DNA of 64,000 nucleotides from Branchiostoma lanceolatum (taxonomy: Eukaryota > Chordata > Leptocardii > Amphioxiformes > Branchiostomatidae), in assembly GCF_035083965.1 (NCBI RefSeq), contig NC_089724.1:18432974-18496973 (forward strand), in the 5' to 3' direction. The position numbers and the translations under genes are program-made. Positions 16,159-55,300 of this stretch are shown here, one piece after another. Position 1 is the stretch's first letter, and each line of letters opens with the position of its first letter. Under the pieces are notes generated by a model. That model did not search any database. It was not told the DNA's origin and worked only from the letters and a program-made list of their open reading frames with translations.

Positions 16159-16199
16159 CTTTTTCCTGACTTCTCTATCATTGGCAACATTCAAAGTTT

Positions 16200-18132: not shown

Positions 18133-18222
18133 TAGCCTGGAATCCAAACCTATTATAGCTCCCGAGTCTCTCTCTTTGCGGAGAGAGACTCGGGAGCTAT
18201 AATAGGTTTGGATTCCAGGCTA
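18133..18222. mobile_element. Hairpin MITE, TAGCCTG family (copy A), 9-bp TSD
   Basis: A 90-bp near-perfect palindrome runs from TAGCCTGGAATCC to its complement, with a loop of only a few bases. The 9-bp direct repeat TAAATCGTC flanks it exactly (18124-18132 and 18223-18231). No coding capacity. Confidence 0.93.
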
Positions 18223-18293
18223 TAAATCGTCAGGTAAGCGCTGCTGCTTTGAACAATAAACCAAGCCTTGCTTTGACCCAGCACCAAGAGACC

Positions 18294-18373
18294 TAGCCTG
18301 GATGCCAGACCCCCAAACTCTAACATATCTATCGTTTGATATGTTAGAGATTGGGGGTCTGGCATCCAGGCTA
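18294..18373. mobile_element. Hairpin MITE, TAGCCTG family (copy B)
   Basis: An 80-bp palindrome from TAGCCTGGATGCCAGACC to its complement, with a short loop near ATCGTT. Its interior is unrelated to copy A although the first eight bases are the same. No target duplication is evident. Confidence 0.88.
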
Positions 18374-18452
18374 ACATAATAGTCAGCAAATTGACTGTGA
18401 GCATTATGATTAAGAAGAAGAAGAAGAAGAGGGGGCCCTAGGCCTGTGCGAC

Positions 18453-18581
18453 ATGAAGGGGGAGATTCAGAAGGACGTGTTCGGGGCGTGCGGGAAGGAC
18501 CTGGAGTGCCGTCCTAACGTCGACTCAGTGCCGAGGACGGATCGAGAGACATCCGACAACATCTGCTTCTGTGAATCCTCC
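18453..18581 (+). other. Orphan exon-like ORF, Cys-containing, unknown protein
   Basis: An ATG opens 43 codons that end in phase 0 at a strong donor (TCC then gtaagt). The peptide begins MKGEIQKDVFGACGKDLECR and ends DNICFCESS, with four cysteines. Codon use is GC-rich compared with the flanks. It follows an AAG run and sits between hairpin MITEs B and C. It could be a first or internal exon, or a captured gene fragment. No partner exon or family was recognised. Confidence 0.3.
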
Positions 18582-18634
18582 GTAAGTTCTTCAGCCTGAG
18601 CTTTTGTTTTGATCATTATCAGTAAATAACGTTA

Positions 18635-18664
18635 GATATGTTAGAGATTGGGGGTCTGGCATCC
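18635..18664. repeat. Detached right arm of MITE copy B
   Basis: Thirty bases (starting GATATGTTAGAGATTGGGGG) are identical to the right arm of copy B at 18338-18367, but the rest of the element is absent. Confidence 0.8.
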
Positions 18665-18733
18665 GATCCAGTCTAGGGAAACCACGTCTAGCGATATATG
18701 TGTCGCAACAAATACTTCTTGGTGTACTGTGCG

Positions 18734-18864
18734 TAGCCTGATTGCAGCCTTTTTAGCTTCCGTCCGCTACCCTAGCTCCGCTGCGCTACCCAAGCTCCGC
18801 TGCTTTTGGCGAGGAGCGGAGCTTGGGTAGCGTACGGAAGCTAAAAAGGCTGGCACTCAGGCTA
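18734..18864. mobile_element. Hairpin MITE, TAGCCTG family (copy C), 9-bp TSD
   Basis: A 131-bp inverted repeat with termini TAGCCTGATTGC and TAGCCTGAGTGCC. Its arms hold GCCTTTTTAGCTTCC and AGCTCCGCTGC blocks shared with copy D. The 9-bp direct repeat TACTGTGCG flanks it exactly (18725-18733 and 18865-18873). Confidence 0.93.
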
Positions 18865-19210
18865 TACTGTGCGCACTGAAAATAAGCGAAATGCCGACCC
18901 CTAAAACGTATTTTTTTAATGGAGTAACGCAATATTATATAGAGGACAGGAAGGAGGATGAAATAAGATTTGTGAGACAATATTATTTAAGAATTTGTTT
19001 TTAAAGTCACCGTAAAAGGCTCACAAGATACCATGAAATCGTTAGCAATCCAGTGAATCATAGACAATAGCACTTCTTCTGAGAGGCCATTTGCTACGTT
19101 GTTCCGCCTCACCTGCGCTATTGTGACAGATCTCTTTGATGTTTAGAGTTCCGCCCCTTTTGCACACCTGGCGAGAAGTGACGAGACTTTCCGAGACGTC
19201 ATTTTCCAAC

Positions 19211-19377
19211 ATGGCGGCTTCCAATCACTGGAAGAAAATTTCTGCAGCTGTGAAGTTTGTCTCCAAAGACGTCGCCGCCAGCCAAGAGAGAGCTAGATTA
19301 GAGGCGATTGAAGCACAGCACGAGCTCCTTGTGAACGAGATAGAGGCGACTGATGCGCCGCTCGGGCCTGTCTGCAG
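19211..19377 (+). CDS. EXOC6: EXOC6 alternative first exon 1a
   Basis: The ATG is embedded in AACATGGCGGC, a YY1-type start-site motif common at housekeeping promoters. The exon encodes 55 residues plus two bases and ends AG|gtattt, the same phase as exon 1b, so it splices in frame to the exon at 30776. Its last part, AQHELLVNEIEATDAPLGPV, aligns with the EXOC6 start (EHERILQEIESTD..GP in human) at least as well as exon 1b does. Used here it would give an 832-residue protein with a distinct N-terminus. It lies 7.7 kb upstream of exon 1b, beyond the satellite palindrome. Actual use needs transcript support. Confidence 0.7.
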
Positions 19378-19641
19378 GTATTTGAAGGCTCGTGATACTT
19401 TTTATGTACGAGGAAAATCCATACTCCGCTTATCTTGACGTATTACAAACTTGACAGGGTCCCTCGCAGTTCCACCTCTCTTGGCCAAGTTTGAAAATTC
19501 CGCGCTTACAAAATCTGAATCCTCGAGAGAGATAGCTCGGCGGAAGTTGCGTTGCTCCCAGCAGTCCATCACTGCATGCCCATTATATTTCTGTCACCCC
19601 ACCAAAACACGATCCAACCAACATGGCGGACGGCGCCGACA

Positions 19642-19671
19642 TGTTACGCGCCGATTTGAGGCACAAGACAT
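19642..19671 (-). pseudogene. Inverted fragment of EXOC6 exon 1b
   Basis: Read on the minus strand, 30 of 30 bases match the start of exon 1b at 27045-27074 and encode MSCASNRRVT. Beyond this the match stops and the frame ends at a stop 14 codons later. The upstream side (19672 to about 19890) also matches the sequence 5' of exon 1b (about 26830-27044), so the fragment includes promoter sequence. Confidence 0.85.
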
Positions 19672-20079
19672 GGGCACGTAAAAACTCAATAGTTCTCGCA
19701 CGAAAGGCCAAATCACGTATATAGATGTGTCCTCGTAATGTCAAGACGTTCCTCAAGCCCCTGCAATAAAGCTGGGTATCTAAACTTCTCCAAGAAGCAA
19801 GATTTCTCGAGTTAAAGATGACCCATTTTCGAAGGTTTTCCCTATGGTTTAAGTATTACACTCCGGACCAAGAACGCACCACATGGGGGTTTCGCGGCAT
19901 GCGGTTTGAGGGCGACGCTCCACTGTTTCCGGGTCACACTCAGCGTGACGGCAGAATACTGGCAAGACAAAGCAAAAGAAATGTTTCGTGTTGATTCTGA
20001 TGACAGTTGACTGTGTTCGGGCGGGAAGCGCGCAAGGAGGCGGCCCACTGTAGTACACGTTTTAAAGTAACGTTAACGA

Positions 20080-20285
20080 TGGCATTGTATATAATGTTCG
20101 GGCACACTTTCTAGTTATACTGTTAAAATTTTTGGCTTTTATACCCTCTGAATTATAACTGAAAACCGTTCCATGGACAACGTTAAGATTGCATTATCAA
20201 ACGGGTTATACCCGCCAACTTAAGACAGGTTTGATACTGTTCTTTAGCAAAACTTCGTAAGTGTTCTATAACATACTTACAATAC
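20080..20285. repeat. Direct repeat copy 1 at the start of the left satellite array
   Basis: This segment (from ATTGTATATAATGTTC to the CATACTTAC region) matches 23028-23235 in the same orientation with scattered differences. Shared landmarks are CTTTCTAGTT, TTATACCCT, AGAATTGCATTAT-like and CCGC(C/T)AACTTAAGAC. Confidence 0.75.
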
Positions 20286-22758
20286 TTTTCCGTTTCACGT
20301 CTGTGCCTATATGGGTGTACACACGCCCTTCAGAAGGCAAGGTTAAAATTGGGTATGACCCAACTCTAAAATGAAAACTTTTCGTTTGACACCTGTGCCT
20401 ATATGGGTATACACACGCCCTTGAGAAAGCAAGGTTGAAATTGGGTCAATGAAATGACCCAATTCTAAAAGGAAAACTTTTCGCCCTACATCCGTGCCTA
20501 TATGGGTGTACACACGCCCTTGAGAAGGCGAGGTTGAAATTGGGTCAATGGAATATTTAATGACCCAATTCTAAAAGGAAAACTTTCCGTCCTACGTCCG
20601 TGCCTACATTGTTGTACACACGACCTTGAGAAAGCAAGGTTGAAATTGGGTCAATGAAATGACCCAATTCTAAAAGGAAAACTTTTTCGTCCTACGTCCG
20701 TGCCTACATGGGTGTAACGTTACACACGCCCTTGAGAAGGCGAGGTTGACATTGGGTCAATGGAATGACCCAATTCTAAAATGAAAACTTTTCCGTTTGA
20801 CGTCCGTGCCTATATGGGTGTACAAATGACCTTGGGAAGCCAAGGTTGAAATTGGGTCAATGGAATGAACCAATTCTAAAAGGAAAACTATTCTGTTTGA
20901 CGTCCGTACCTATATGGGTGTACACACGCCCTTGACAAAGTAAGGTTGAAAATTGGGTCAATGGAATGACCCAATTCTAAAATGAAAACTTTTCCGTTTG
21001 ACGTCCGTGCCTATGTTGGTGTACACACGCCCTTGAGAAGGTGAGGTTGAAATTGGGTCAATGGAATATTTAATGACCCAATTCTAAAAGGAAAACTTTC
21101 CGTCCTACGTCCGTGCCTACATTGTTGTACACACGACCTTGAGAAAGCAAGGTTGAAATTGGGTCAATGAAATGACCCAATTCTAAAAGGAAAACTTTTT
21201 CGTCCTACGTCCGTGCCTACATGGGTGTAACGTTACACACGCCCTTGAGAAGGCGAGGTTGACATTGGGTCAATGGAATGACCCAATTCTAAAATGAAAA
21301 CTTTTCCGTTTGACGTCCGTGCCTATATGGGTGTACAAATGACCTTGGGAAGCCAAGGTTGAAATTGGGTCAATGGAATGGACCAATTCTAAAAGGAAAA
21401 CTATTCTGTTTGACGTCCGTACCTATATGGGTGTACACACGCCCTTGACAAAGTAAGGTTGAAAATTGGGTCAATGGAATGACCCAATTCTAAAATGAAA
21501 ACTTTTCCGTTTGACGTCCGTGCCTATGTTGGTGTACACACGCCCTTGAGAAGGTGAGGTTGAAATTGGGTCAATGGAATATTTAATGACCCAATTCTAA
21601 AAGGAAAACTTTCCGTCCTACGTCCGTGCCTACATTGTTGTACACACGACCTTGAGAAAGCAAGGTTGAAATTGGGTCAATGAAATGACCCAATTCTAAA
21701 AGGAAAACTTTTTCGTCCTACGTCCGTGCCTACATGGGTGTAACGTTACACACGCCCTTGAGAAGGCGAGGTTGACATTGGGTCAATGGAATGACCCAAT
21801 TCTAAAATGAAAACTTTTCCGTTTGATGTCCGTGCCTATATGGGTGTACAAATGACCTTGGGAAGCCAAGGTTGAAATTGGGTCAATGGAATGACCCAAT
21901 TCTAAAAGGAAAACTATTCTGTTTGACGTCCGTACCTATATGGGTGTACACACGCTCTTGACAAAGCAAGGTTGAAAATTGGGTCAATGAAATGACCCAA
22001 TTCTAAAAGGAAAACTTTCCGACCTACGTCCGTGCCTATATGGGTGTACACACGCCCTTGAGAAGGCGAGGTTGATATTGGGTCGATGGAATGACCCAAT
22101 TCTAAAATGAAAACTTTTACGTTTGACGCTCGTGCCTATATGAGTGAACACACGCCCTTGAGAATGAAGGTTGAAAATTGGGTCAATGAAATGACCCAAT
22201 TCTAAAATGAAAACTATTCTGTTTGACGTCCGTGCCTATATGGGTGTACACACGCCCTTGAGAAGCCAAGGTTGAAATTGGGTCAATGGAAAGACCCAAT
22301 TCTAAAATAAAGTACTTTTCCGTTTGACGTCCGTGCCTATATTGGAGTAAAGATGCCCTTGAGAAGCCAAGGTTGACATTGGGTGAATGGAATGACCCAA
22401 ATCTATAATCAAAGACTTTTCCGTTTGACGTCCGTGCCTATATGGGAGTACACACGGCCCTGAGAAGCCAAGGTTGAAATTGGGTCAATGGAATGACCCA
22501 ATTCTAAAATGAAAACTTTTCCGATTGACGTCCGTGCCTATATGGGTATACACACGGCCCTGAGAAGCCAAGGTTGAAATTGGGTCAATTGAATGACCCA
22601 ATTCTAAAATGAAAACTTTTCCGTGTGACGTCCGTGCCTATATGGGAGTACACACGGCCCTGAGAAGCCAAGGTTGAAATTGGGTCAATGGAATGACCCA
22701 ATTCTAAAATGAAAACTTTTACTTTGACGCCCGTGCCTATATGGGTATACACACGCCC
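20286..22758. repeat. Satellite array 1, ~100-bp monomer, 513-bp higher-order repeat
   Basis: About 24 tandem monomers, each containing GACGTCCGTGCCTATATGGG, TACACACGCCCTTGAGAAGG, CAAGGTTGAAATTGGG and the interrupted palindrome GGGTCAATGGAATGACCC. A marker variant GGTGTAACGTTACACAC recurs at 20711, 21224 and 21737, exactly 513 bp apart, marking a five-monomer higher-order unit present three times with near identity. Open reading frames here are by-products of a repeat length close to a multiple of three. Confidence 0.95.
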
Positions 22759-22762
22759 TTAA

Positions 22763-22981
22763 GCCGGCGTCAATATTCATGCGAGCGTCGGCCGAATTCG
22801 TAGATCGCCCAAAGCTCGCCGAATTTCAAAATCGCCCGAGCATATTTGGATCAATTTGATTTCTAAAAATCGACCGAAGCCCGCATAATCGACAGAACGT
22901 CGGCCGTCCTTCGGCCGAAAATACCCATTTGAAGCTCGCCGACACGTCGGCCGAGCTGAATTCTTGATTTGTGACGGGGGT
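22763..22981. mobile_element. TTAA-flanked insertion inside a satellite monomer
   Basis: Removing 22763-22981 and one TTAA restores a continuous monomer (CGCCCTTAAGAAGGCAAGG). TTAA is present on both sides (22759-22762 and 22982-22985), as in piggyBac-type insertions. The ends are weakly inverted (CGGCGTCAATATTC versus CCCCGTCACAAATC). The interior repeats CGTCGGCCGA-like blocks. It has no ORF. Confidence 0.75.
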
Positions 22982-23027
22982 TTAAGAAGGCAAGGTTGAC
23001 ATTGCGTCAATAGAACGAGGGCGTTGT

Positions 23028-23235
23028 ATATAATGTCCTAACACTCTTTCTAGTTTACACTGTTTTCAGCTGTTATACCCTGAAAATCATAGCTAAGAGC
23101 GTTCCTTAAGAACGTTTAGAATTGCATTATTAAGCGGGTTCTATCCGCTAACTTAAGACGGGAAACTCTTGTTTGGAAAAGTTTGTAAGTTCTATTCCAT
23201 ACGTGTGAGTTTTCATTGTTAGGAACTTACGGTCG
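23028..23235. repeat. Direct repeat copy 2 in the palindrome spacer
   Basis: Second copy of the 20080-20285 segment in the same orientation, lying between the two opposed satellite arrays. The following 23236-23459 shows only degraded monomer-like words. Confidence 0.75.
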
Positions 23236-23459
23236 TACACTGTAAGGACGGAATGTTTTTTGCACTCTTAGTGGCTTTTGTGTAATTTATACCCATATAA
23301 CCTACTTTCCAAGCAGAGGTCGTGGGGGAAGATTGACTTTTTTTATCATATGCCTCGTTGGTTATACACCCACTTAGGACGGACAATTCTTTTATGTCCG
23401 AACTGTGGCGATCCTTTGAAGCGGTTTCAACTTTGCACTCTTAAGGGATTGTTTCTATA

Positions 23460-26400
23460 TACTGGTCCAATTTCAACCTTGCATTCTAAAGGGCGTGTTC
23501 ATACCCCTACAGGCACGGACATAGGACGGAAAAGTATTCATTTTAGAATTGGGTCATTCCATTGACCCCATTTCAACCTTGCCTTCTCAAGGGCGTGTGT
23601 ACACCAATATAAGCACGGACGTCAAACGGAAAGTCTTTTATTTAAGAATTGGGTCATTCCATTGACCCAATGTCAACCTTGGCTTCTCAAGGGCGTGTGT
23701 ACACCAACATAAGCACGGACGTAGGACGGAAAAGTTTTTATTATAGAATTGGGTCATTCCATTGACCCAATGTCAACCTTGCCTTCTCAAGGGCGTGTGT
23801 ACACCAACATAGGCACGGACGTCAAACGGAAAAGTTTTCATTTTAGAATTGGGTCATTCCATTGACCCAATGTCAACCTTGGCTTCTCAAGGGCGTGTGT
23901 ACACCCATATAGGTACGGACGTCAAACGGAAAAGTTTTTATTTTAGAATTGGGTCATTCCATTGACCCAATGTCAACCTCGCCTTCTCAAGGGCGTGTGT
24001 ACACTCATATAGGCACGGACGTAGGACGGAAAAGTTTAAGTTTTAGAGTTGGGTCATTCCATTGACTCAATTTCAACCTTGCCTTCTCAAGGGCGTGTGT
24101 ACACCAGCATTGGCACGGCGTAGGACAGAAAAGTCTTTGATTATAGAATGGGTCATTCCATTGACCCAATGTCAACCTTGGGTTCTCAAGGGCGTGTGTA
24201 CACCAACATAGGCACGGCGTAGGACAGAAAAGTCTTTGATTATAGAATTGGGTAATTCCATAGACCCAATGTCAACTTTGGCTTCTCAATGTCGTTTTTA
24301 CACCCATATAGGCACGGACGTCAAACGGAATGTTTTCATTTTAGAATTGGGTCATTCCATTGACCCAATTTCAACCTTGCCCTCTCAAGGGCGTGTGTAC
24401 ACCAACATAGGCACGGACGTAGGACGGAAAGTTTTCATTATAGAATTTTGGGTCATTCCATTGACCCAATTTCAACCTTGCCTTTTCAAGGGCGTGTGTA
24501 CACTCATATAGCCACGGACGTCGAACGGAAAAAGTTTTCAGTATAGAATATTGGGTCATTCCATTGACCCAATGTCAACCTTGCCTTTTCAAGGCCGTGT
24601 GTACACCCATACAGGCACAGACGTCGAACTGAAAAGTTTATATTATAGAATTGGGTCATTCCATTGACCCAATTTCAACCTTGGCTTCTCAGGGGAGTGT
24701 GTACACCCATATAGACACGGACGTCAATCGGAAAAGTTTTTATTTTAGAATTGGGTCATTCCATTGACCCAATTTCAACCTTGGCTTGTCAAGGGCGTGT
24801 GTACACCCATATAGACACGGACGTCAAACGGAGAAGTACTTCATTTTAGAATTGGGTCATTCCATTGACCCAATTTCAACCTTGGCTTCTCAGGGGCGTG
24901 TGTACACCCATATAGACACGGACGTCAAACGGAAAAGTACTTCATGTTATTATTGGGTCATTCCATTGACCCAATGTCAACCTTGTCTTCTCAAGGGCGT
25001 GTGTACACCCATATAGGCACGGACGTAGGACGGAAAAGTTTTCATTATAGAATTGAGTCATTCCATTGACCCAATGTCAACCTTGTCTTCTCAAGGGCGT
25101 GTGTACACCCATATAGGCACGGACGTCAATCGGAAAAGTTTTTATTTTAGAATTGGGTCATTCCATTGACCCAATTTCAACCTTGGCTTGTCAAGGGCGT
25201 GTGTACACCCATATAGACACGGACGTCAAACGGAGAAGTACTTCATTTTAGAATTGGGTCATTCCATTGACCCAATTTCAACCTTGGCTTCTCAGGGGCG
25301 TGTGTACACCCATATAGACACGGACGTCAAACGGAAAAGTACTTCATGTTATTATTGGGTCATTCCATTGACCCAATGTCAACCTTGTCTTCTCAAGGGC
25401 GTGTGTACACCCATATAGGCACGGACGTAGGACGGAAAAGTTTTCATTATAGAATTGAGTCATTCCATTGACCCAATTTCAACCTTGCCCTCTCAAGGGC
25501 GTGTGTACACCAACATAGGCACGGACGTAGGACGGAAAAGTTTTCATTATAGAATTGGGTCATTCCATTGACCCAATGTCAACCTTGTCTTCTCAAGGGC
25601 GTGTGTACACCCATATAGGCACGGGCGTCAAATGGAAAGTTTTCATTTTAGAATTGGGTCATTCCATTGACCCAATATCAACCTTGCCTTCTCAAGGGTG
25701 TGTGTACACCAACATAGGCACGGACGTCAAACGGAAAAGTTTTCATTATAGAATTGGGTCATTCCATTGACCCAATGTCAACCTTGCCTTTTCAAGGGTG
25801 TGTGTACATCCATATAGGCACGGACGTCAAACGGAATGTTTTCATTTTAGAATTGGGTCATTCTATTGACCCAATTTCAACGTTACCCTCTCAAGGGCGT
25901 GTGTACACCAACATAGGCACGGACGTCAATCGGAAAAGTTTTCATTATAGAATTGGGTCATTCCATTGACCCAATGTCAACCTTGCCTTTTCAAGGGTGT
26001 GTGTACATCCATATAGGCACGGACGTCAAACGGAAAAGTTTTCCTTTTTTAGAATTGGGTCATTCCATTGACCCAATTTCAACTTTGGCTTCTCACTGTA
26101 GTGTGTACACCCATATAGGTACGGACGTAGGACGGAAAAGTTTTGATTTTAGAATTGGGTCATTCCATTGACCCAATTTCAACCTTGCATTCTCAAGGGC
26201 GTGTGTACACCCATATAGGCACGGGCGTCAAATGGAAAAGTTTTCATTTTAGAATTGGGTCATTCCATTGACCCAATGTCAACCTTGGCTTCTCAAGGTC
26301 GTGTATACACCCATATAGGCACGGGCGCCAAACATAAAAGTTTTAATTTTAGAATTGGGTCATTCCACAGACCCAATTTCAACCTTGCTTTCTCAAGGGC

Positions 26401-26466
26401 GTGTGTACATCTATATCAGGCACGGACGTCAAACGGAAAATTCTTTCATTTTAGAATTGGGTCTGC
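23460..26466. repeat. Satellite array 2, inverted relative to array 1, 402-bp higher-order repeat
   Basis: About 30 monomers of the same satellite as array 1 on the opposite strand (TTGGGTCATTCCATTGACCC, then AACCTTGCCTTCTCAAGGGC, GTGTACACCCATATAGGCAC, GGACGTCAAACGG). A four-monomer unit starting near 24740 repeats at a 402-bp offset with near identity. The array ends abruptly at 26466. Confidence 0.95.
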
Positions 26467-26655
26467 TTTCATGAAGGTTGCCTCCAGAGTGCCGAAGCCA
26501 CCGTCTTCTTTGGGCTTCTCCAACTTTTCCCGGAACTCAGCCCTCTTAGTATGTCTCAACTGCTTCTGAGCATATACAAGCTTACCGCAGCGAGCACAGA
26601 CACTTTTGGTGACGTATGCCCGGTAGGTGTCGTCTGTTCCGTACTGGGCGCCCAG
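26467..26655 (-). pseudogene. Unidentified coding relic at the edge of the satellite array
   Basis: On the minus strand this stretch reads as ordinary coding sequence for about 60 codons (YGTDDTYRAYVTKSVCARCG, then KLVYAQKQLRHTKRAEFREK, ending near ATFMKAD), with a CxxC. A stop lies a few codons upstream next to a small duplication (CAGTAAGGAT), and the frame runs into the satellite downstream. It looks like a captured or truncated exon. Family not recognised. Confidence 0.35.
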
Positions 26656-27044
26656 TAAGGATCAGTAAGGAGCCGGTTAATTTGCACTGCATGACAAATT
26701 CTAAAATAAGAAAAGTATTCTAACATATCTTTGGATAGAACGTGAAGATTGACCACACTTCCGCGTTCGGCTGCAAGCCCTTCTGCTACGACCCGGAAGT
26801 AAATTACGCCTGATAATGCTGAAACGGTAGCACGGAAACCCCCATGCAGTGCGAAATCTACGACAGAATTTAACACAAGAAGGCTCATTTTGGGCCAACT
26901 TTGAGTGTGCAAGTCTCGTTCGAAAATCATATTTGGATCTCCAAGTGTATCGCAGGAGCTTGGACAGCTTCTTGACATTACGGGGACACATTTATATGCA
27001 TGATTTGGCCTTTCGTGCGAGATCTATTTAGTTTTTACGCGACC

Positions 27045-30000
27045 ATGTCTTGTGCCTCAAATCGGCGCGTAACAGACAGCGCAGAGCTCCGCACCGAACA
27101 CGAGCGCATTTTGAAGGAGATAGAAAGCTCCGAGCCAGGGCTGGTTGGCGGGATATTGAGGTAAACATGTCGTAGACATTTTCTGACGAGATACACGTAG
27201 GTTTGTTGTGCATTTCTTTGCGGTATGACGCCCTTGCAGTGAGCTCGCAGGGGTGATGGGAGGGTCGGTGCTTACACTAACGATAGTGCAAAATAGGATT
27301 CCTGGTGCCAAGTAACTGTCATACGTAGTTTAGTGGGATAGAACTAAGACTCATTTTGATTACAGCCTACTAAGCAAAGAGTCAGTAGAAAGTACGCCAT
27401 GTGTCATGGTAAATATTTTGAGGTTGCTTGTTTGCATGTACAAATATGTGGAGTCGAAAATCGTGACGATCAACTTCCTGTTCTGTGCAGTCAGACCCTC
27501 CCTCCCCAGAGGACTGCATTGGTTAGAATACTAGTATCACGTCATGCTATTTTTGGTCCGGTAGAGACTGAGTGTGTGGTTAGGTCAGGTTCACAGCACA
27601 TGAAGAGGACCAAGATCAAGAATGTGAGAACAAAGAGTGGTCATAATTTGTTTTGATGACTTCATTCATAATTTTGTTCAGTATTTTAAAGACAAACAGC
27701 TTGTGCTGTCCATTCTCTCCTTCCAGTTCCACTTACTGTTCTGTCATAGTGTCAGTTTGGACCTCGCCAGTTGTTGAAATTAAGTGCATTAATAATGATT
27801 AGATTTTCTGATTAAAAACATTTTTTGTATTATACCTCATAGAATAATGTTACTGGAAATAAAATTTTTAAATGGAACACAACTTGACAAGAAGATTCCA
27901 GGAAACTTATAGCTACAGACCAAGGACATTATATAATGTCCTTGCTACAGTCTAACCAAATACGTCACATATAATGTGTTATTACAGTCTACCCCATCTG
28001 ACATTCCATCATGTCAATGAATGACAACTTTTAACACACCTTGTTGCAACAGTGCATGCACAAGGTCCTAAGTATTGTTCCATCGATCAGCTGAAGATAA
28101 GGGGCTGTCATGTAAAGTCATTTAAGTTAACTGCCTGTGAAAATTGGCAATCAGGCAGAAAACTTGCCATTTGTGTCAAAGTGGTTTCTCTCGCACTCAC
28201 CATTATGGGTTGATGTGCTTTATTTTTGTTGTCCTCATTGAGATTGAGCCCATTTGGAGAATGTAACATATATATGTGTTTGTACACCAAAGTCTTGCTA
28301 CTGCTTTGCTTTAGTATACATGTACATACTATTACTAGTACTGTATTAGTATACTGTATACATCGTGTATGTTTGAGTTCTAGTAACTGTTGTTTAGCTT
28401 TGCATCATATAAATCATTAAATGAGCCATAGTACATATAAAAAAGCCAAACCAAATTAGACCGTACAAATTAAGTTGAATGTTGCCTGTTTAGATATTCC
28501 ACAAGGTTACTTTTCTGTGTTTATTCATCCATTGTTGATACATGTGTATATAATCCTCTTTAGTAATTAATGGAAGAAACGATTTGACATCCCAAACCTA
28601 ATGTAACTATAGTGTAATCAAATTGTAAGCAAATTTTCATCTCCAGATGCCTTCAATCCCTCACCAACTGAAAATAAGTTACAATTTGTTAACAGAAATT
28701 GGTATTAAGTGTATATGCAAGACTGCTTATAACAAAATAATCATAATAATTGATTTATTGATCGTTATATTTCCTCACTACATTAGGTCACAGAGCATGA
28801 AATAATTTACCAAATATAATATCCTTTTTCTTTTGGTCAGTTTTAGTTTATTGTGAGGATTAATTTTTTTTGTGACAGGTGCTTTCAGGGTATTCCAGCT
28901 GTTGACCTTTCAGGCCAACTTCATGTTTACAAAACTTGAGCGGACATTTTGTTCTGTTGTGCATGTGACATGTTTACTTTGTGGGTGGCAGACCTTCTCA
29001 ACTTAGGGTTAAAGTTCACCCTTTCAAAAAGCTGATTGGATAGGAGAAACATTTTGGTTCTCATGGAATTCTTCATGGAAAAATAGATGCAGATTAAACA
29101 CCCTCGAAATTGAAGTACATTACATTTGCTGTGTTATACCAGCAGAGATTACTATGTCCAAGTATGGGATCACATATTTTTCATGTTAGGGTCAGACTCA
29201 GAGTTTTGTGTCTTTGTTCTGCCATGTATATCCCGGTCTGCACCGCTTCAATGGGGGGCCGTGACGGTTCCTCTCTGTGTGTTAAGAGAAACCGGCTTCG
29301 GCGACACTTAGGAGGTCATGATAATGATATGCTAATAAGCCTGCGCTGGCGATGGAAGTATATTTTCCTCATTCTGAAACGTTTGTGCAATTGTCATTGA
29401 AAGTTGTCGAATGTTTCAAGTGCAATGGCCTGCCACCAGTGGCTGCATCTTTGACCTTGACCCGATCAACGTGCTCGGCTTGCACTACAGCCCGTAGGTC
29501 TAAAGACAACCGAAACGGTATCGAACCAGTTCGCATAGGTATAAGCATGGCAAGTGTAAAGTGGGCCTAACAAAACATAGTATGATGAAGTAACAAATCA
29601 AAATCAAAAAAACAAAGCTGCAAATTAACTTTAGTACAATAATGATAAAATATTGTTACCTTGGTTGATAATGATAATGATAAAGTACTTCAAGAAAATT
29701 TAACAAACTAGTAAATGTATTGAACAAGCAAAGTAAAAATTACAAGTCAAGTAAATAATGAAGATAATGGAATTTGGATATCAATGATTATAAAACAAAA
29801 TGAACAGTTTCTAAGTGGTGAGACCTGCAAAAAAGACATGCATGTACATGTATTGGCAGCTTCAGTCAATCAGTGTTCTGAGTCTGACTAGGTGATTTTT
29901 TGGTATCACATCTGACATCTTGCCCCAGAGTTGTTGTTTTTTCCCATCTAAATAAGTAAAGACTAATATGCATAGTATGCTATCTCTAGATCAGACTTTT

Positions 30001-41185: not shown

Positions 41186-43824
41186 TCATGACATTGTATG
41201 ATATGAAGGCACAGGGTGGGGAGGGAGGTGGAGATACTCTTAGTTCAAAGAGGTAAAAAGTAGCTTCTCATTGAAATTTAGACAAAGGGGTGAAAAACAA
41301 TTGGGTCCATAGGATTGCTTGAAAAGCTAATAATTCTTGAATTGTACATATTGTAGTGCCTCAATTATGCGTTTTCAGAAGAGAGATTGCTGAAGAGAAT
41401 GTTTCGCGAAAGGGTTTTCATTTTGGTGCAAACTAATGGTATCATTTATTGCTTCATGTAGCGTTAGACCTGGGACAGCATACTCACAATTACAAAGACT
41501 AAGGAAAAGGGGCTGTATGCCTATATCTAAAGAAGGTGGCAAGGGTTGAATGTAAAGGGAAGAACACACTTTCCATACTGACCTGTCCCACTGTCAGTAC
41601 TCTCTAGAAGCTCTCGAGCATGACCTGCCAATGACAAAGCCGTACAAAGTGCATTTGTACTTTAAGGTCTGAGGTCTGGTTGTTTTTGAAGACATTTTAA
41701 CTGTATTTGCTTATCCTAGCTGCAACTCTAACCAAAAGCAAGGGTGACCCTCTTGTATTCTTTGCATGCAGTTTGCTTACAGCCATTTGCAGACAATGAG
41801 AACTTGCTTGGGACATGCAAACAGTCTGCAGGTATGTGAATGAAATCTAGATTTAAAAGGAATAATAGCCAATAGAAGTAATGGGACATGTGCAAAGGAT
41901 TAGAGATGTTCAAGAGACATAGAAATGTATGGTGCAACAAGGGATGGAAAAGGCATGGATTGCAGTGAAAATTCTGTTTGACCATCCTGTGCGAAGGCTT
42001 TGATTTGATTAAGTAGTGTTTTTGCTGAGCCTGCGAAATCTTTATGCCCGTGTTAGTTCAAAATTAATGGGCAAAAAAGAAAGATAGTTCAGAATGGTAG
42101 GCTGAAAGGTAATGCATATGGTTCCAGCTAGATGCAGGGCACAAGCAATGTGAAAGATAGGTATTAATTAAATTGTCCGAGCCAATTTAAAGGTGTCTAG
42201 TAGATGTACAGAGTAGTTGTAAGGTTACCCATGATGTGACAATTTTATATATTAAGCCAATATATATAAGCCATGTTCAAATCCACTGTCTATGCACATC
42301 TTGTAGCTTGCCAATCATGATACTGCTGCAGTCACAAATGCATGTTCATCCAGCAAGATACTTTTTAATCTAAAATTTAGATGATCATGATAGCCAGTTG
42401 CAAAATTGGGCCAAGCATATTTTATTATACGAAATGACAAAAAATTACATTGTATAAACACTCAGAAGGCTATGCTTGTGTGGGCTGAAATTGTACCGTG
42501 TACAATGCTACTAGTTGAGATACATTGTGAATGTTTTATTGTCATAGACTTTTGAATGCACAAGACACTCACATATATCACTAGACACAAGACACTATAA
42601 TCATCAGTTTATATATTTAGCAAGATATGTACATGTATGCTGTCATCAAATAGCAGACATTTAACAGTGAAAGTTGCAAATCCAACTTTTTGTTGTCAGT
42701 TTGATTTTTTTTCTATTTCAGCATAGTGTCCTTGATAACAATAGTTTATGTAACCTATGAAAATTAGGATTGTTTGTATACACTCAATCAATTATAATGT
42801 ATTGGGCAACTGTTAGGATCATGTTAGCATTCACTGTGAATTAGTTGTGAGAATGTTTCAATCAAATGAATTCTCAGTGCAAGTACATACCTATGTGGTA
42901 AAAGTATGGCAAAGTTAGCAATTGTTTTATGGTAGCTATTTTTTATGCCTCTTCAAAGTCCTTGCTACAGCTACTATGCAAAGACTTCTGTTAAGATTTC
43001 ATTATGAGTCCTCCTTATTTTCCCTGTACTATGTTCTTATCCAGGGGAACTGGTATTGGCTCTATGTGTAAGATTCTATTCAAAATTGCTTGTTGGCAGC
43101 TGCTGGCATCTCTATTCTGAAGTCACTAAAAATTGTTATAAAATGTGACCATAGTGCAATCAACAGTTACTGTAGGGTAAAAAAAATAGGAGAAAAATGC
43201 AGCTGTCTTCACTATTTGATAAGCACTACATGTACTTGTCTTTTCATCCTTGATTTTTTTCATCAGACAATATGCCTAGAGTACTTCCTGTTAAAAACCA
43301 TTCTTCAGTTCCACATCCATGACACACAAGTCCTGTTTGAAAATTGCAGGAACATGGAGACGTAAGTTTCTAGGCATGTTTTATCAGAACAAATGTCCTA
43401 TGATGGCTGTAGCATCTGTTACTAGGCTAATGACAATGGACATGATTCTGTCTATGCCACACTGATTAGAAGTGAAGATGGGGAAATACTCAGACTGTTT
43501 TCTTCAAGTGTGAGGAGAGAAATTGCATATATGTTGCAGGACTGAATGCAGCTGCAGGACATTTCAACGCCTGCAGATGCAGAATCCAGTGGATGATGAT
43601 GATGATAATTTGAATGATATGATGCAAGTTTAGCATATAGATTTTGAATGTGCCAGGGAGATAGGGGTCAACCTTTGTGAATTAATATTATTGCATGCTC
43701 TGATATGGATTGGAAATAATAACCATCCATCCTAACATAACACTGTATGCACATAAGATATTAATGAGGATGCACCATGGGGTGGAGTTCCAGACATGTC
43801 ACAATCATCTATCTTTTCAACATG
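41186..43824 (+). other. EXOC6 3' UTR and downstream intergenic sequence
   Basis: Nothing coding is recognised after the EXOC6 stop. The tract is AT-rich; no unambiguous AATAAA was fixed as the poly(A) signal. Confidence 0.4.
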
Positions 43825-44079
43825 TAGCCTGGTCACCCCTCGGCAAAGCCTTTTTGATTCCGGAAGGCTGTGCCGAGGGGGTCAGGCCTGCTTGAGAAGG
43901 GTAACCCTGCCCTGTCTGTTAAACATGTGCCTGTTTCTGTCAGTCTTTTTAGTGGGTCTTTCGCCGCCCAGGGAGTGAACTAATTGATATCAAGCCAGTA
44001 ACCCACCCCAGTGCATGCTAATCTGTCTCACTCCCAGCACCATAGAGATACCAGGGAGCTCCTGAAGGTTACCAGGCTA
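43825..44079. mobile_element. Hairpin MITE, TAGCCTG family (copy F), nested hairpin
   Basis: The left end TAGCCTGGTCACCCCTCGG pairs with two right partners. One is a close partner at 43872-43889 (TGCCGAGG..CAGGCCT), giving a 65-bp hairpin. The other is a distant terminus ACCAGGCTA at 44071-44079, giving a 255-bp element. The distant end also obeys the family terminus, so the short hairpin may be an internal part. No TSD is clear. Confidence 0.6.
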
Positions 44080-44660
44080 CTTAACATGGGACATTAAGAG
44101 ACTCCCCAGAGTTGATATGAAAGATTTTGTAATGACCGCCTCCCATCTGGCTTATACTGCCATGTTCGTTACCTCAGCAAGGAAAACTATATTTACTTGT
44201 CCCAATTACTTTTGATGAGTTTTGCTTTTTAGTATTTTTTTCCTTGTTGAACAAAGAATGGTACTTCTCTCCTTGGTGACATTGTACAGTGTAACAAACT
44301 GTACTGTATTGCAGGGTGTACCATTTGCTAGGCTACATCACAATGTGCTTTGTAGGATCTCATGTGGTGTACATGGAGAGGAAACAATATCTCTCTTTAC
44401 AAGTAACACACTAAGAATTTTGTCATTACACTTGTAGTGGGATGATTAAATTTTCAACATGTTTCTTTGTCATTTGTGTTAACTTGGTGGATGATAAACG
44501 TGTGCATGCACATACTGCTCTTCATCATAAGTCTAGGCTCTGATCATTATCTCGGCCATTGTAGGCTATCTTATTACATTTCCCTTAGACCAATTGTAGT
44601 AAGGGAGAGTAAGCCGATAGTCATGCTGCACTCTGGGAATAGGATAATCTGTCATTACAC

Positions 44661-45068: not shown

Positions 45069-46890
45069 TTTAAGTCTCTACAAAGACCTGGAAGTGAGAT
45101 GTTTGACAAAGAAAAAAAGAATGTGCAACCTAAACTTTTTGACCAGAAAACATCACACAAAGGGAACAGGACTGCAGATTCAAACAATATTTATTCCACA
45201 TAAACACAATCAGGAGTTGCACACAGGAGCCAAGCTTTTGGCATTCTAGACCAGTTGGTCAAACACTCGACCACAATAAATAACATCATTAAATTCTTCA
45301 TTTTGCTTTGTACATATTGGTACATATACTTATGGCATCTACTGTGCATAAAATTCTCTATAATTATACAGTATTTACAGGAATAAGACATTTTTTTAAA
45401 AGTGCATTTTTTTTTACTTTGACAGCTGCCAGTATCTTGAACAAAAACAAAGTAGCTTACCCATGACACCAACAGCACCCAAGCAATGTACATGTATCTT
45501 ACTAATATGTTTAAAACTGTTTCACCATTTCAGTAAACATGCCTATATCCTACACTGATAAAGAAGCTACATGAAAATGTTTCTTAGTATGTTTTCAGCT
45601 CTGAACAAGTTGAAAGGTGCTACTCAAGAAATGTTCCATGAGCAGAAGGTGGAAGTTTTGTTATGGTCCTATAGACTGTTGTTAGTATGTTTGTGGGACA
45701 CAATCATGTATTTTACAATTTCTTACAAATATTCCTACAAAGGCATATTTTGAATAATATCTCAAAAAAATCCTAAAAAGTCTCATGACCCCAATGAGCT
45801 AGTTATTTACTGAAGGTATTGGATTTGATTTTTTGGGGGGTATTACTAACAAGTACTCAGATATTGTGCTGAACCAGTCCAATAATCTTATGCTTACTTT
45901 AATCACTGCGAAAACATAAAAGTCTTTGGTGCAATTCTCAGCTTTTTTTGTCCTAACCAAAAGATGCTAGTCACAGACTTTTGCATCATCATACTGACGT
46001 CTACATGTATTTAACCTTCAGTACCCCAAGTTCCCAGTGTAGCAGTACAAAATTGTTTGTAACTACAGTAGAAAAGAGTGCCAAATGTTAAGTTGTGGCT
46101 GGAGACAAACTAATCCTTGTGCATTCTGACAATGTTTAAGACAAATATCCTCCACTCTGCTATGCAAGAAGCACCGAATGATCTCTATGTGATAACTAAC
46201 TTATCAACAAAACACACTTGAGTCATGTCATTTTTTTTTCAGATATTGAAGGGTGAAATTTTGTTTGAATGTAATCTTTTGTTAAAGATTGCAACTTTGG
46301 TTAGGAGGTCATTTTTGTCTGATTTTCACTCACTTGGGCTGGGGTTCCCATCCAAGTATTTCTATTCTTACAGAATTTTTTTTCTGTACAGGAAAGTGAG
46401 AAACGTGATTTGGGAAACCAACTGCACCTGGAAAACATTTGGCAACAACAAAACTCCATGGAAAAAAATCTATAAATCTTGATAACATTAAAAGGCATTG
46501 AATCCGTCTGGAAAATTCTATTAAACATCACTCCACAACATCTAGTATGGGCTACCAGCAACAGTTAAAATAATACATGTTTAAGTTTTAAAACAGATTG
46601 GATGAAATTAATTTCTAACACAATGTGCAAAATTCTTTCTTTTGTTGAACTGGAAATAATATACTTGAAACGACATCATGATGTGACAGTGAAGAGAAGT
46701 ATTTGACAAGTACAGTTGAGGAGTTTCCATACATGTAATCTTTTCCTTTCTCCATGGTGAAGTTTGCATGAGACTACAGACCACTGAAACTTGCTTTGAT
46801 TTTTTGCTGATATCACCACTGACAGTGCCTTTTGAACTGATCTGAAGCAAGACCCCATAGCTACTGGTTGGCCGTAAAGGTTGTTTGTCA
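45069..46890 (-). other. Probable 3' UTR of the deacetylase gene
   Basis: No coding sequence follows the deacetylase stop. A minus-strand AATAAA at 45195-45190 is a candidate poly(A) signal that would give a ~1.7 kb 3' UTR ending just short of the SINE tail. Confidence 0.4.
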
Positions 46891-49800: not shown

Positions 49801-52235
49801 CCTGATAATTGCAAGCCCATTGTCCACCTCCCCTTGCAGAACTGCTTCCACCAGTTTGATGGCACAGCCCACAGCCAACATGGCACAGTTGTACACATGA
49901 GGGCTCAGGTATGTGGGGCTTCCCTCCTCCAGTTTGCAGGGGTTCTGGTTTGGATCCACCTCAGCTTCCTTCTGCCAGGCTTGGACTTGGGCAATGTACT
50001 CTGGGCTGTGGAGGAAGAGAGAATTTAATGTAGAACAAAATATTCTGCACTACGATACTAGAAATTGGTCACAGCTATTCTGAGACCCAAGCGTTATCTT
50101 CCATCGACTCCAACCATCCCTCCTTGCAGCACATCCCATAAAATTCCATGATGAATGCTTCCAATGGTAGATATCTATATGTGCAAAACCTACTGTAGCA
50201 GGGCTTGGAATATGCGGTGCATCTGCACTTTTGTGCACCCAAAATTGGAGCTGTGCACCTAACTTTTGACCGGGTACGCTGGTGCACCTAGACATTTGAG
50301 CAGGTTTACATAACTAAAGGTGCTTTTGTGCACTAGTATACAGCTGCATATTCTTGGCACTTGAGGGTCAGAAAAAAATAGTAAAACCTTGCTGTACTTG
50401 TTAAATTTTGTGGAGTTTGCCATAAGATTTCAGAAATCCAAGCTGAGGAAAGGCAGTATGCTTAATATTATGTTGCACACTTAATTTGTATTTTTTTCTG
50501 TGCACCAGTTAATCTACATGTATTCCCCAAAATAACTTTTGAATCCTGTGAAGTGACAAGAGTTAAGAGAGCCCATTTAGGGATTCCTACCACTAGTACC
50601 AGTTCTTACCTGTGCACAAGAAGCACCACCTCCTCTGTGGCCGGTCCGGCGATGATGCGGACACACCTGGACACCAGCCCCTCCTCCTGCAAATAGTCAT
50701 ACATCTTGGACACTCGATCTGGGTGTTCCACATGGTTTCTATGGAAACAAACAAACAACAAACAAAATGAACATAAAGCGACTGACACAATTTAACATCC
50801 CATTGTGACTACACCATTCATGTTTCAGTGGCAACAATATCTATGGTAACATGAAATATTAATAAAGACATCACTTCAATCAATACATTGATCTCCATTA
50901 TACTTTTATCATCTATTAAATATTATTGCTAATAAATGGCAAACCACTTACAGATCAAAACTACATTTGTGAAGTGTCATTCGCTCATCGTAGACAAGTC
51001 CTGTCCTGTAGTTCTTCTGTTGAAGCGGTGAGGGGTCATTCCTGATGGTGATGAACAGAGGATGTTATGTTGCAGAGCCACAGATATCCCATTTACAAAA
51101 CAGACACTCATTAATCAGTGCTTTATTAGACTTAACCTTCAGCCTGCTAAGGTAGCTGTTTGGCACCAAATTTGTATTGGTTTTGATGTTAGGCAGTAGG
51201 GAGAATGTCATGTATGCTATGTAACATGTCACAGTGGGCCATTATATCACATACCAGCACAAATCACAAAACTTCCCCTTTGCATTTTCTACAATTTTGA
51301 TAAACAATGTAATTACTGAAGCCCAAACATCGACCTATTTTAACAAAATTCAACAGTATCGGATTTTCTTGTGAACTATAATATGATCATATTGAAAATC
51401 TTAAAGGAAGAGGATCGAAAAGCTTTAAGTACTCTAACACCTCCTTGCTCTAACGTCCTTCGTAACTGTTACATACGTTGATTTTTTAGCAGTGGGGGAC
51501 TGCAACTTGCAATACTTTCTGGTTGAGGCGCTGAAAAGGGAAAAAAATCTAAAATGTACGTTTAAGTTACACAATGTTACGAATTCCTTCATGCGAAACT
51601 TCTTTTTGAATGCAAGAGCTTGCGACTGTGAAAGTTGACGGAAACGTCTGGCGGAAATATTTTCTGGTAACAGGTGTAACCTGGAACGTCATTTCCGCCT
51701 TCATGTACAATTTTGACAGTGAAATGAAGTTTACATAATCATGTCCTACACGCAACCAACATCTGTAAATGTCTCCCTTTTTTCCAACTTCCTATTCCTA
51801 ACACTGAGGGTCATGCGAAATGAAACGCAAATCAAATTTGCGCGCCTTTGGCTCCCCCGATAGAGACATGACTGCGGGGGGTCCAAAACAAACAGGGTTC
51901 CGCCGGGAACCCCATTTTGGGAAACCGTGTCGTCAGCTCGGAGCGCCCCCTCCGCAACCCAGCCCTACCTTTTCGATTCTGACATATCTCAGCCGACACC
52001 GTCCGAACTCTTCCAGCCTTGCAAATGCCGATAATGAACCCAGCTTGCAGGCGATGTCCTTTATAATGCCAAAATATGCGATCATGGAATATTTTTGGCT
52101 GGAACCCTGACAGCCGCTCCCTTAGTGACCTTACCTAAGGTCGTTATTTTTTACTTCCGGGTTCAGCCATTGTGTTCCCGCCAAATTTACTTACCCAGCA
52201 TGCAGCGGGGGTGTTTGTTTCGTCATCATCATCAT
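46891..52235 (-). CDS. Class IIb histone deacetylase, single catalytic domain, HDAC6-like, 394 aa
   Basis: Exons (minus): 52235-52195, 51041-50952, 50738-50610, 50005-49802, 49395-49291, 48868-48673, 48344-48273, 48150-48091, 47935-47846, 47316-47213, 46984-46891; all GT-AG with matching phases. The domain starts at [11 protein letters not shown] and [13 protein letters not shown]. Catalytic signatures: [18 protein letters not shown] (His159/His160), [13 protein letters not shown] (zinc ligands Asp197, His199), CGFDAA (Asp292), and ILEGGYN (transition-state Tyr332). The C-terminus [14 protein letters not shown] matches the end of an HDAC6 catalytic domain; a stop follows 10 residues later. 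There is no second domain, no ubiquitin-binding zinc finger and no HDAC10-type P(E/A)CE motif. Family role: zinc-dependent deacylation of tubulin, other proteins or polyamines. Exon 1 ([14 protein letters not shown]) is chosen by phase and a good Kozak context and is the least certain part. Confidence 0.92.
47317..47660. repeat. Intronic minisatellite with nuclear-receptor-like half-sites
   Basis: About six imperfect units of ~45 bp (AGGTCAACATTCATACAACA, then CAGGTCAAAGTTCATAGAGC) fill the deacetylase intron between exons 9 and 10. The unit at about 47386 contains AGGTCAAAGTTCA, a DR1-type match; later units carry decayed versions. Confidence 0.8.
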
Positions 52236-52343
52236 GGCGGTCCCACTTGTGTACAAAACTGACAGGAACTGAGTTTTTTCGAATGTTTAACGGTTGTTGT
52301 TTTTCTCTGAACTCGAGGGACATGACAGTTGGAATGAGGAGAG
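52236..52343. promoter_or_regulatory. Bidirectional promoter between the deacetylase and SIM/UIM genes
   Basis: Only 108 bp separate the two divergent start codons (52235 minus, 52344 plus). The interval has a Myb-like TAACGG and no TATA box. An ETS-type ACTTCCGG lies just inside the deacetylase transcription unit at 52153-52160. Head-to-head spacing this short implies shared control. Confidence 0.65.
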
Positions 52344-55300
52344 ATGAGCGAGCCCATCGTGTTGTCTTCCGGGGACGAAGAGGACGCGATTTCCGGTGAA
52401 GTGATCACGATCAGTTCATCAGACGAGGAGGCGTTCCAGAAGCCGAGCTTTACCCCGAGAAGTCGGCGTGCCCGAGCACGCTCGCGGTCGCCCCGTGGTC
52501 CTTCCCCTCGCGGCGTCAAACGTGCAGGGAGCCGGGCGGACACTGTACCACTCCCTGATACTGGTGACCCTATCTACATCTCCGAAGACGAAGACAACAG
52601 TGCTGATCGCGCAGACGGCGGGAGAGGAGCTGACAATGCAGGTAACCATGCCGCTGGGACATGCATGTTTCAGGTCACGTGCTAAACATAAAATTTTGGC
52701 GGTAGGGTGACGAAAATGTACGCACAAATAAACATAAAAACCTGCTCATAACCTGACGTAGTTCCAATAGGCTGTTTATTGTCTTAACTAGTTTGTATCA
52801 TTTGTGAAATATACGGCTACTTGTTAGGTGATTTGGTAGGAGAGCTAAATGGAAAAAGAAAAGCGGAAGTGATTGTTTGTCACATCCATGTCCAGTGGGG
52901 ATTCCCCTATTTTACCGTTGAGGGTGAAACAAATGAAGGGGAATTCGCGCCTGATGTAAGCGAGTTTGGCAGAAACACAGTCTAGATACATTCTGATACA
53001 CTAAATTTGAGTCTTTAGATCCATCATGGGTTTGTATAGAAAATGTTTTCTGACAACCATAACTGGAAATTTCCATGTATTTGTTATACAAATTATGCTC
53101 CTTGATCTGCATATTTGTTATTGTATTAAACCGATATTTGCTACCTAGGTTATCATAAGAAATGATTTTGTCCTACAAAATTGGAAGCAAAATGGTATTT
53201 TGTGTGACCAAAATTCATGAAAAGTCAGTCTAGCTAGGGACTACTTGTGATTTGTTATGGGACTCAGGGACCTAGACTCTAGAGCAGGGCTCAACTGGAG
53301 ACAAAATAAATGGCATTTGTCTACAACTAAAGATTGAACAAAACCTGTTCTAATTCTAATGGATTGTATATGCATGTCTTCTCCCTTGTCATTTGGCCCA
53401 TTTTTCATGGGTTGGGTTGTTTGTCACATGCACAGAGAACGCTGTATGATGACAGCCACCTGTTTCAGGGGAAGTCAGTGGGTCAGGAGAGATTCATCAA
53501 TGTCAGTTCCCCTCCAACATGCTACTCAGAGGTAGCCTGAGTGCCAGCCTTTTTAGCTTCCATACGCTACCCAAGCTCCGCTGCCAGCCTTTTTAGCTTC
53601 CATACGCTATCCAAGCTCCGCTGCCGGCAGCGGAGCTTGGGTAGCGCACGGAAGCTAAAAAGGCTGGCACTCAGGCTAGCTTGGAGGTGATGGCAAGTTA
53701 TTTTTCCATGGAGTCATGGACCTACATGACAGTTGACAAATTGCTGGGCTCCCAGCCAAGAAGGGCCTTCTAGTTCTACTGTGGAACCATATCTTTGTGT
53801 GGGAGTGACTTGACCAGGGGTCAATGAATGGTACTGGAATTTATTCATATGAGCTCACTGGGCTCAAATTTAGATCTTTGAAAAAAATCACGAACAAGAA
53901 CATTGTGTGCCAGGTTGAATGGATCACTTCTTTGATTGAATAGTCCATCCAACAGACATTTGTACATGTAGTTTGTCTTGGAGTCACTTTCAAGTAACAC
54001 AGTATCCAAACCTATTATGGATAGTTGGCTACCAAGTCTGTTTTGCCCTCTCCTATTTGGGTACTAGTAGAGGACGAAAAAAGACTATGCAGCTAGCTGT
54101 AAAAGGCTTGGATACCACACTAACTTTCAAGACCATGGGCTGAAGGGGGACCATGCAATTTGACCAGTGGCAAACCAGGTTATACAATCCCCGTGTACCA
54201 AGCAGTACATCTAGACACAGTGACACCTCTACATATATTTCCAGAACAATTGGTAGTCCTATCATATAGCCAGGACATGCTTCCCAAAGAGCCAAGAGCG
54301 TGCTTAGAGTCCACAGAAATGTACTTAGTTTCTCATGGCCCCATATCAAGTTTCTAATAATGCATTAAAAAATCATATTTCCTTTTGACAGACCACACCA
54401 GACCCTGTAGGATTGCTACCCCAATAGACTGGAAGCCGATACATGCTTGGGTTATGTAATTTTAGGAGAGGGCAAATGGGGTCAAATTCTAGGGAGTTTG
54501 ATTTGTAACACATCAGTTTGGAATTAGCATTGAAGGGCCTGAAGGTTGTCAGGTCACACAAACTAGATTTTATGGATAACAGCCATGCATGCATTGATTT
54601 TACCTGCTTTCTGCATGTGCAAAATTCTGCAAATCAACTTTAAGAAATCTCCATGTCCAAGGTATTGTCAGAAAACAACCCATGAAGAAATGAGCTGTTC
54701 TGTTTGTTTACTTGCTTGTTTGTTTGTTTATTTTTTCCTTCATGCGCTCGCAACATTTGATTTGATTTCATAACTTTTACCCGTCTTACATATGCATGTG
54801 CACTGTTCCCTCAGGTCTCTTGTCTACCAGAAGTTTCGCCAGTCCGATTGTCAAGTCAGAACAGGGAGCTGAAGATCACCAGGCACTTGTGAATGGAACT
54901 TCAGCCATCTCTACACTAGTTGCTCCCATCACGTGTCAAGCAACCCTGAGTCTGAAAGAGGAGGGTGACCCTAGTAGTTATTACAAGACAGAGAGTGTAG
55001 ACAGAGATCCAGGCATGGGTAACAGCACCAGCAGCTCTGGGCCAGATGCAGTGTCTGGAGAGCTGGAGGACAGGACAGTCAGCTACCATACCAACCAGGT
55101 GTCCATGGAACAATCTGACGTGTTTAAGATGGAGCCTAGTCTGGCAGACTCTGACGAAGACTTGCAGGCAGCGATTAAGGCATCTCAGGAGCTTGCGCAG
55201 TTTGAGAAAGTGACAGAGGAGGAAGCCTTGAGGATTGCAATTCAAAGGTCTCTAGCAGATTCGGTTCAGAACAGGGACAGTTCCCAAGAGTCTGACGATG

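Follow-up and report, generated by a model that had tools for sequence, protein, structure and literature searches.

Six small inverted-repeat elements with a common TAGCCTG tip, mostly private interiors and 9-bp target duplications at some copies

Results

Genes, tandem arrays and fold-back structures of the window

The DNA analysed here is a single stretch of 64 kb, which we refer to as the window. Its gene content points to an animal genome. An exon encoding a ubiquitin domain lies near 4656-5159, and Pfam scanning of ORFs from the window gave matches to histone deacetylase and to Sec15/EXOC6. On the minus strand, one uninterrupted reading frame of 1,888 codons fills 10531-16197; it has a match to the homeodomain, and zinc-finger-like Cys/His motifs were recognised by eye in its translation. 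A ~100-bp tandem repeat forms two oppositely oriented arrays, at 20284-22760 and 23467-26463 (~24 and ~30 copies, respectively), and both are enclosed by an inverted pair (19642-19784 / 26932-27074; 143 bp, 85%), giving a 7.4-kb fold-back structure. There is no exact TAGCCTG inside this structure, and the sole flank match near its edges (7/8) is out of register. Another pair of inverted arms (2606-2738 / 3121-3253; 133 bp, 79%) is bordered by 15-bp minisatellites of the type TTTTCACGCGCAAA.

Six elements share their outermost bases

The window also carries six elements, E1 to E6 (Table 1), which, like MITEs, are short (80-255 bp) and non-coding and have inverted ends in all six cases. A sequence-only reading had listed six coordinate pairs with TAGCCTG as the left terminus and CAGGCTA as the right, and each of the six proved to have exactly these ends. 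The window contains 15 copies of the motif compared with a mean of 6.17 in shuffled sequence, with at least 15 copies in 1 of 100 shuffles; the six element pairs account for 12 of the 15, and exact ends number eight left and seven right. In this single window, the density is six elements per 64 kb.

Table 1. Positions of the six elements, the half copy of E3 and the 9-bp flanks that match exactly or in part
Feature	Position	Strand	Description
E1	9435..9556	.	122 bp; inverted ends 25 bp (92%); interior non-palindromic; no 9-bp duplication (3/9)
E2	18133..18222	.	90-bp hairpin; arms 42 bp, 100% complementary; spacer 6 nt
E3	18294..18373	.	80-bp hairpin; arms 36 bp, 97%; spacer 8 nt; no 9-bp duplication (2/9)
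E4	18734..18864	.	131-bp hairpin, 84% with indels; 19-bp tandem duplication in left arm; same sub-family as E6
E5	43825..44079	.	255 bp; inverted ends 13 bp (12/13); own hairpin in left end
E6	53533..53678	.	146-bp hairpin; zero-spacer centre 53582-53669; 40-bp unit doubled in left arm only
Half copy of E3	18627..18675	.	one arm, 8-nt centre TAACGTTA and degraded tip CAGTCTA
E2 duplication, left copy	18124..18132	.	TAAATCGTC; exact
E2 duplication, right copy	18223..18231	.	TAAATCGTC; exact
E4 duplication, left copy	18725..18733	.	TACTGTGCG; exact
E4 duplication, right copy	18865..18873	.	TACTGTGCG; exact
E5 degraded duplication, left	43816..43824	.	TTCAACATG; 7/9
E5 degraded duplication, right	44080..44088	.	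CTTAACATG; 7/9
E6 possible duplication, left	53524..53532	.	ACTCAGAGG; 6/9, weak
E6 possible duplication, right	53679..53687	.	GCTTGGAGG; 6/9, weak

Alignment of the 12 ends showed positions 1-7 and 12 to be invariant (12/12; position 12 is C) and position 13 to be C in 11/12. The common end is ~13 bp long, TAGCCTGRNNNCC, and past position 14 the ends have little in common. We then compared the arms beyond base 14 for all 15 pairs of elements. The only clear match was between E4 and E6 (as good in 0/200 shuffles), in line with the earlier claim that interiors differ completely except between the elements beginning at 18734 and 53533. The E5-E6 pair was marginal (1/200 shuffles as good), and the remaining 13 pairs were unconvincing, with 13 to 199 of 200 shuffles as good. 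By this comparison there are five sets of interiors that do not clearly resemble one another: E1, E2, E3, E4/E6 and E5. Given the end alignment and the 15-pair arm comparison, we take the shared part to be ~13 bp and describe the interiors as sub-families. Mobilisation by ~8-13 terminal bases alone would fit the alignment of the 12 ends.

Hairpins of differing quality

The interiors had previously been called palindromic and freely varying. They do differ, but the description is too strong, given the E4/E6 sub-family, a second sub-family formed by E3 and its half copy, and two elements that are not palindromic throughout. Real hairpins are formed by E2, E3, E4 and E6. The term near-perfect, once applied to the whole group, suits E2 (42-bp arms, 100%), E3 (36-bp, 97%) and the inner palindrome of E6 (44-bp arms, 93%, zero spacer), the outer part of which pairs as well; it suits E4 less (51-bp arms, 84% with indels) and does not hold for E1 and E5. 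For E1, pairing is confined to the outer 25 bp (92%). At the ends of E5, 12 of the outer 13 bp pair, and a separate hairpin lies within the left end, with its arms inside 43836-43880 and pairing that continues outward in the direction of the tip; the self-alignment score of this left end was 32, compared with a best score of 64 and a third best of 30 among 2,000 stretches taken at random from the window.

When folded as single-stranded DNA, the six stretches (for E5, the left 71 bases) were each more stable than 200 of 200 of their own shuffles, with z from -5.5 to -19. Tight palindromes (arms of at least 16, short spacer) were sought along the entire window; six were found, of which five are within E2, E3, E4, E5 and E6 and the remaining one, at 2902-2946, lies outside the elements.

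Target-site duplications of 9 bp

As for MITEs, a target duplication of fixed length, here 9 bp, was detected. Identity between the 9-bp flanks of E1 to E6 is 3, 9, 2, 9, 7 and 6 of 9, respectively. The exact duplications reported by the sequence-only reading, TAAATCGTC at E2 and TACTGTGCG at E4, are each present at 9/9, and the 9-bp flank comparison revealed no duplication at E1 (3/9) or E3 (2/9). For flank pairs drawn at random from the window (n = 200,000), the probability of at least 7/9 was 0.0038 and that of at least 6/9 was 0.016, and 0 of 200,000 draws attained the sum of 36 obtained for E1 to E6 together. Among the lengths of 5-11 bp tried, the signal was confined to 9 bp; identities for E1 to E6 were 4, 1, 3, 3, 2 and 2 of 7 at k = 7, 3, 2, 2, 0, 1 and 2 of 8 at k = 8, and 4, 2, 4, 0, 4 and 2 of 10 at k = 10.

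All inward pairings of the eight left and seven right exact ends were also compared, at any distance, and at least 6/9 was reached only for E2, E4, E5 and E6. The exact TAGCCTG copies at 9190, 34263 and 56417 were also paired with other exact ends as candidates for longer elements; none of these was at or above 6/9, and they were rejected. In a motif-free scan for inverted 10-mers of at least 9/10 with flanks of at least 8/9, in which tandem arrays were removed from the real list and kept in the shuffles, we obtained four rows: E2, E4, one nested in E2 and one unrelated 8/9 match at 4057-4397. Of six shuffles, five returned no row and one returned a single row. For the group, the 9-bp duplication is certain at two elements, likely at one and possible at one. 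Counting against mobility are E1 and E3, which have no duplication, and E6, which reaches only 6/9 though its arms are well kept. The duplications of E2 and E4 (18124-18132 and 18725-18733) both start with TA, which for n = 2 may reflect a target preference or be due to chance.

A half copy of E3 and changes to single arms

A half copy of E3, absent from the earlier description, lies ~250 bp downstream of E3. The blastn match covers 18627-18664 (38 bp, 94.7%, E = 2e-12), with 36/38 bases equal to the E3 arm and central 8, and ends there. The central 8-mer is self-complementary in the half copy (TAACGTTA vs TATCGTTT in E3), and the degraded tip CAGTCTA, which reaches 18675, was read by eye. Changes to one arm are also seen as tandem duplications of a 40-bp unit, doubled only in the left arm of E6, and of a 19-bp unit in the left arm of E4. 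Hairpins are prone to slippage and to loss of one arm, and the duplications in E4 and E6 together with the half copy of E3 look like the outcome of these two processes.

Between E3 and its half copy is an exon-like piece, 18414-18584 (GC 0.60, 57 codons, five cysteines), which is followed by GTAAGT (seen by eye, under the donor threshold used) and has no acceptor-like site before it. It is possibly a captured gene fragment. A reading of 18294-18675 as one 382-bp element containing this piece is unsupported, since the outer flanks agree at 2/9 for 9 bp and 5/8 for 8 bp and since the exon-like peptide had no Pfam or PDB match. Separately, E2 (region 18124-18240) adjoins a strong donor-like site, CAGGTAAGC, at 18234, and thus may sit at an exon-intron border.

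Candidate transposase

No transposase family was found among the Pfam matches of 8 ORFs and of 145 ORFs (at least 70 aa) of the window, with 7 of the 8 recurring among the 145. The larger set comprised the longest (at least 70 aa) of 577 ORFs of at least 45 aa and was selected once the satellite and 10500-16200 regions had been set aside; in the 10500-16200 region, only the 1,888-codon frame was scanned for Pfam domains.

hAT elements duplicate 8 bp of target. Flank identity at k = 8 and k = 7 is low for E1 to E6, and we rejected both the hAT superfamily (8-bp duplication) and the P superfamily (7-8 bp, as for P/Galileo). The length typical of Mutator elements fits while those of hAT and P do not, and membership of E1 to E6 in the Mutator group, as judged by duplication length, is therefore likely. 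A MULE-like transposase is our best guess, because duplications of 8-11 bp, a range that includes the 9 bp seen here, are described as typical of that superfamily (PMC6446971, PMC5225508). The MULE families described from Aedes make duplications of 8-9 bp (PMC5225508). MULEs are rare in animals, with a median number of 0 across the 100 genomes of one survey (PMC8277862).

We have no match of the TAGCCTG terminal sequence to a described MULE end, which we count against a Mutator assignment. Within elements, the arms extend from 13 bp (E5) to >40 bp (E2, E6), with a common part of ~13 bp; the published range for MULEs is 14-500 bp, with some groups having none (PMC6446971). The animal MULE ends described are mostly longer than 13 bp (Rehavkus, 26-400 bp; Spectre, 76 bp), again with some groups lacking them (PMC6446971, PMC5225508), and in Aedes they exceed 100 bp in 12 of 14 families (PMC5225508). 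We also looked for Foldback ends built of tandem repeats, and this candidate was rejected: only the one-arm duplications were found in E4 and E6, and there was no array in E1, E2, E3 or E5 (score 50).

Searches in prokaryotic and viral sequence collections

In viral contigs, neither three paired-end patterns nor the interiors of E6, E2 and E3 found a match. In prokaryote genome contigs, one sub-family interior had no match and a paired-end pattern had two, both bacterial, where by a rough estimate ~2 are expected by chance. We consider the two bacterial matches to be chance, as judged by eye: the tips do not extend into hairpin arms, and the 9-bp flanks are unlike. The two bacterial genomes had no 7-base ends 30-60 bases apart (both matches themselves are longer). 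The collections consist of prokaryotes and viruses, and their negatives therefore say little about animals.

Discussion

A single mobility group of minimal elements

That this group consists of mobile elements which duplicate 9 bp of target and have very short ends in common is supported by the flank, end and arm comparisons within the window. We consider E1 to E6 to be, most likely, non-autonomous cut-and-paste MITEs of one mobility group, moved by what is likely to be a Mutator/Foldback-type transposase, with the hairpins representing fused ends. The transposase would be encoded elsewhere, would most likely be of the Mutator/Foldback kind and would recognise the short tip, cutting at its outer T and inserting with a 9-bp stagger irrespective of the sequence between the tips. 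A single 9-bp-duplicating transposase acting in trans might need little beyond the terminal motif. Each hairpin would be what is left of a longer element of its sub-family, reduced to its two inverted ends and with these fused by internal deletion or template switching. Zero-spacer centres, of which there are two cases, might arise from internal deletion between self-complementary words of both inverted ends; such a centre is not displayed by E2, with its non-palindromic 6-nt spacer. In hairpins once formed, replication slippage would account for the one-arm tandem duplications of E4 and E6, and loss of one arm at the hairpin centre for the half copy of E3.

Alternatively, there might be several autonomous families within one superfamily, which differ in their long inverted ends and whose related transposases bind similar tips, in which case the hairpins would be ordinary end-fusions of different families and no one transposase would move all of them. 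The five interior sets without clear similarity (E1, E2, E3, E4/E6 and E5) are consistent with this possibility, as are the 14 MULE families described in Aedes aegypti alone (PMC5225508). However, the agreement of the tips, invariant at positions 1-7 and 12 in 12/12 ends, is closer than independent families require, and wherever a duplication shows it has the one length. We regard this alternative as unlikely.

The arms might instead be newly made from host DNA, the tip and adjoining unique sequence being copied as an inverted duplicate so that each hairpin is new. Arms that are private to each element and yet symmetrical inside it would be explained, the zero-spacer centre of E6 and the self-complementary centre of the half copy of E3 are what joining two copies of one end is expected to give, and Galileo is described as recruiting non-terminal sequence into its inverted ends (PMC4168063). 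Against this, the half copy of E3, the sole private arm recopied in the window outside E4/E6, bears the inner portion of the tip motif and so resembles a transposon remnant rather than a host source, and the 6-nt spacer of E2 is non-palindromic. A host origin of the arms is improbable on this evidence. Similarly doubtful is the reading in which a short-tip transposase mobilises newly made palindromes: after abortive excision, the tip and neighbouring DNA would be joined head to head with a copy, the junction lying in a self-complementary word. The product would be a hairpin with almost no loop and with newly made arm sequence, able to act as a MITE straight away. If this were true, hairpin sub-families would continue to arise in the genome, and each would be a new source of dsRNA.

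Tc1/mariner elements duplicate a TA target. If E1 to E6 were MITEs of this kind, the outer TA would be the duplicated dinucleotide and the true tips would be GCCTG...CAGGC; TA is indeed outermost at 12/12 ends, and E1 and E3 have no longer duplication. This reading makes a coincidence of the exact 9-bp flanks of E2 and E4, which go beyond TA alone, and of the 7/9 flanks of E5, despite a joint score matched by 0/200,000 draws, and we consider it very improbable. That the hairpins are not mobile and have been retained for an RNA role, as small-RNA genes or structured RNAs, is scarcely credible: the very stable single-stranded DNA folds of the six stretches (z -5.5 to -19) are in its favour, but there were 0 matches to known RNA families in Rfam at gathering score, the interior is shared only by E4 and E6, and target duplications are present at E2 and E4.

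Elements of the E1-E6 type show how little end sequence a transposase may need. The one-arm duplications, the half hairpin and the hairpin within an end are natural intermediates for studying the birth and decay of MITEs, and perfect hairpins scattered among genes are a possible source of small RNAs.

Comparison with known systems

A literature search found no description of TAGCCTG elements within its reach, which did not extend to many journals or to Repbase. Shared tips with varied interiors have already been described, for Muta1, Galileo and FB4. Muta1, a MULE of Aedes aegypti, resembles E1 to E6 in its 8-9 bp duplications, short terminal motif and varied interiors, and most of its derivatives are reported to be similar to it in the inverted ends only; the Muta1 ends, however, are 145 bp with subterminal tandem repeats, whereas E1 to E6 share ~13 bp, have arms specific to sub-families and are known here without a transposase (PMC5225508). 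The Tm1 Mutator/Foldback elements of Meloidogyne likewise are a MITE-like class with terminal 7-bp motifs and duplications of 8-10 bp, mostly 9 bp (45/53 elements), but are described as having composite ends, ~14-bp tandem repeats and the asymmetric motifs CGGTTAA/CCTACCC, and their sequences differ from those of E1 to E6 (PMC3169594).

Foldback FB4 of Drosophila shares duplications of 9-10 bp (PMC8277862) as well as palindromic structure and termini with varying internal modules, though its terminal palindromes are given as mostly >400 bp, in contrast to the 80-146 bp hairpins here (PMC2955051). In Galileo, of the P superfamily, the ends are the best conserved part, are extended either through tandem repeats or through recruitment of other sequence, and are all that is left of some copies; the duplications reported are 7-8 bp with the consensus GTATTAC, and the sequences differ from E1 to E6 (PMC4168063). 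Plant MULEs with multiple inverted ends have extra copies of end sequence, and acquired sequence can be integrated into their extended ends; as described, these ends are >100 bp, the elements are from plants, and the copies are tandem rather than head to head (PMC3310237). E1 to E6 combine known traits at an extreme, with hairpins of 80-146 bp, a common part of ~13 bp and arms private to the sub-family, and illustrate a known kind of element with unusual clarity; they are not wholly new.
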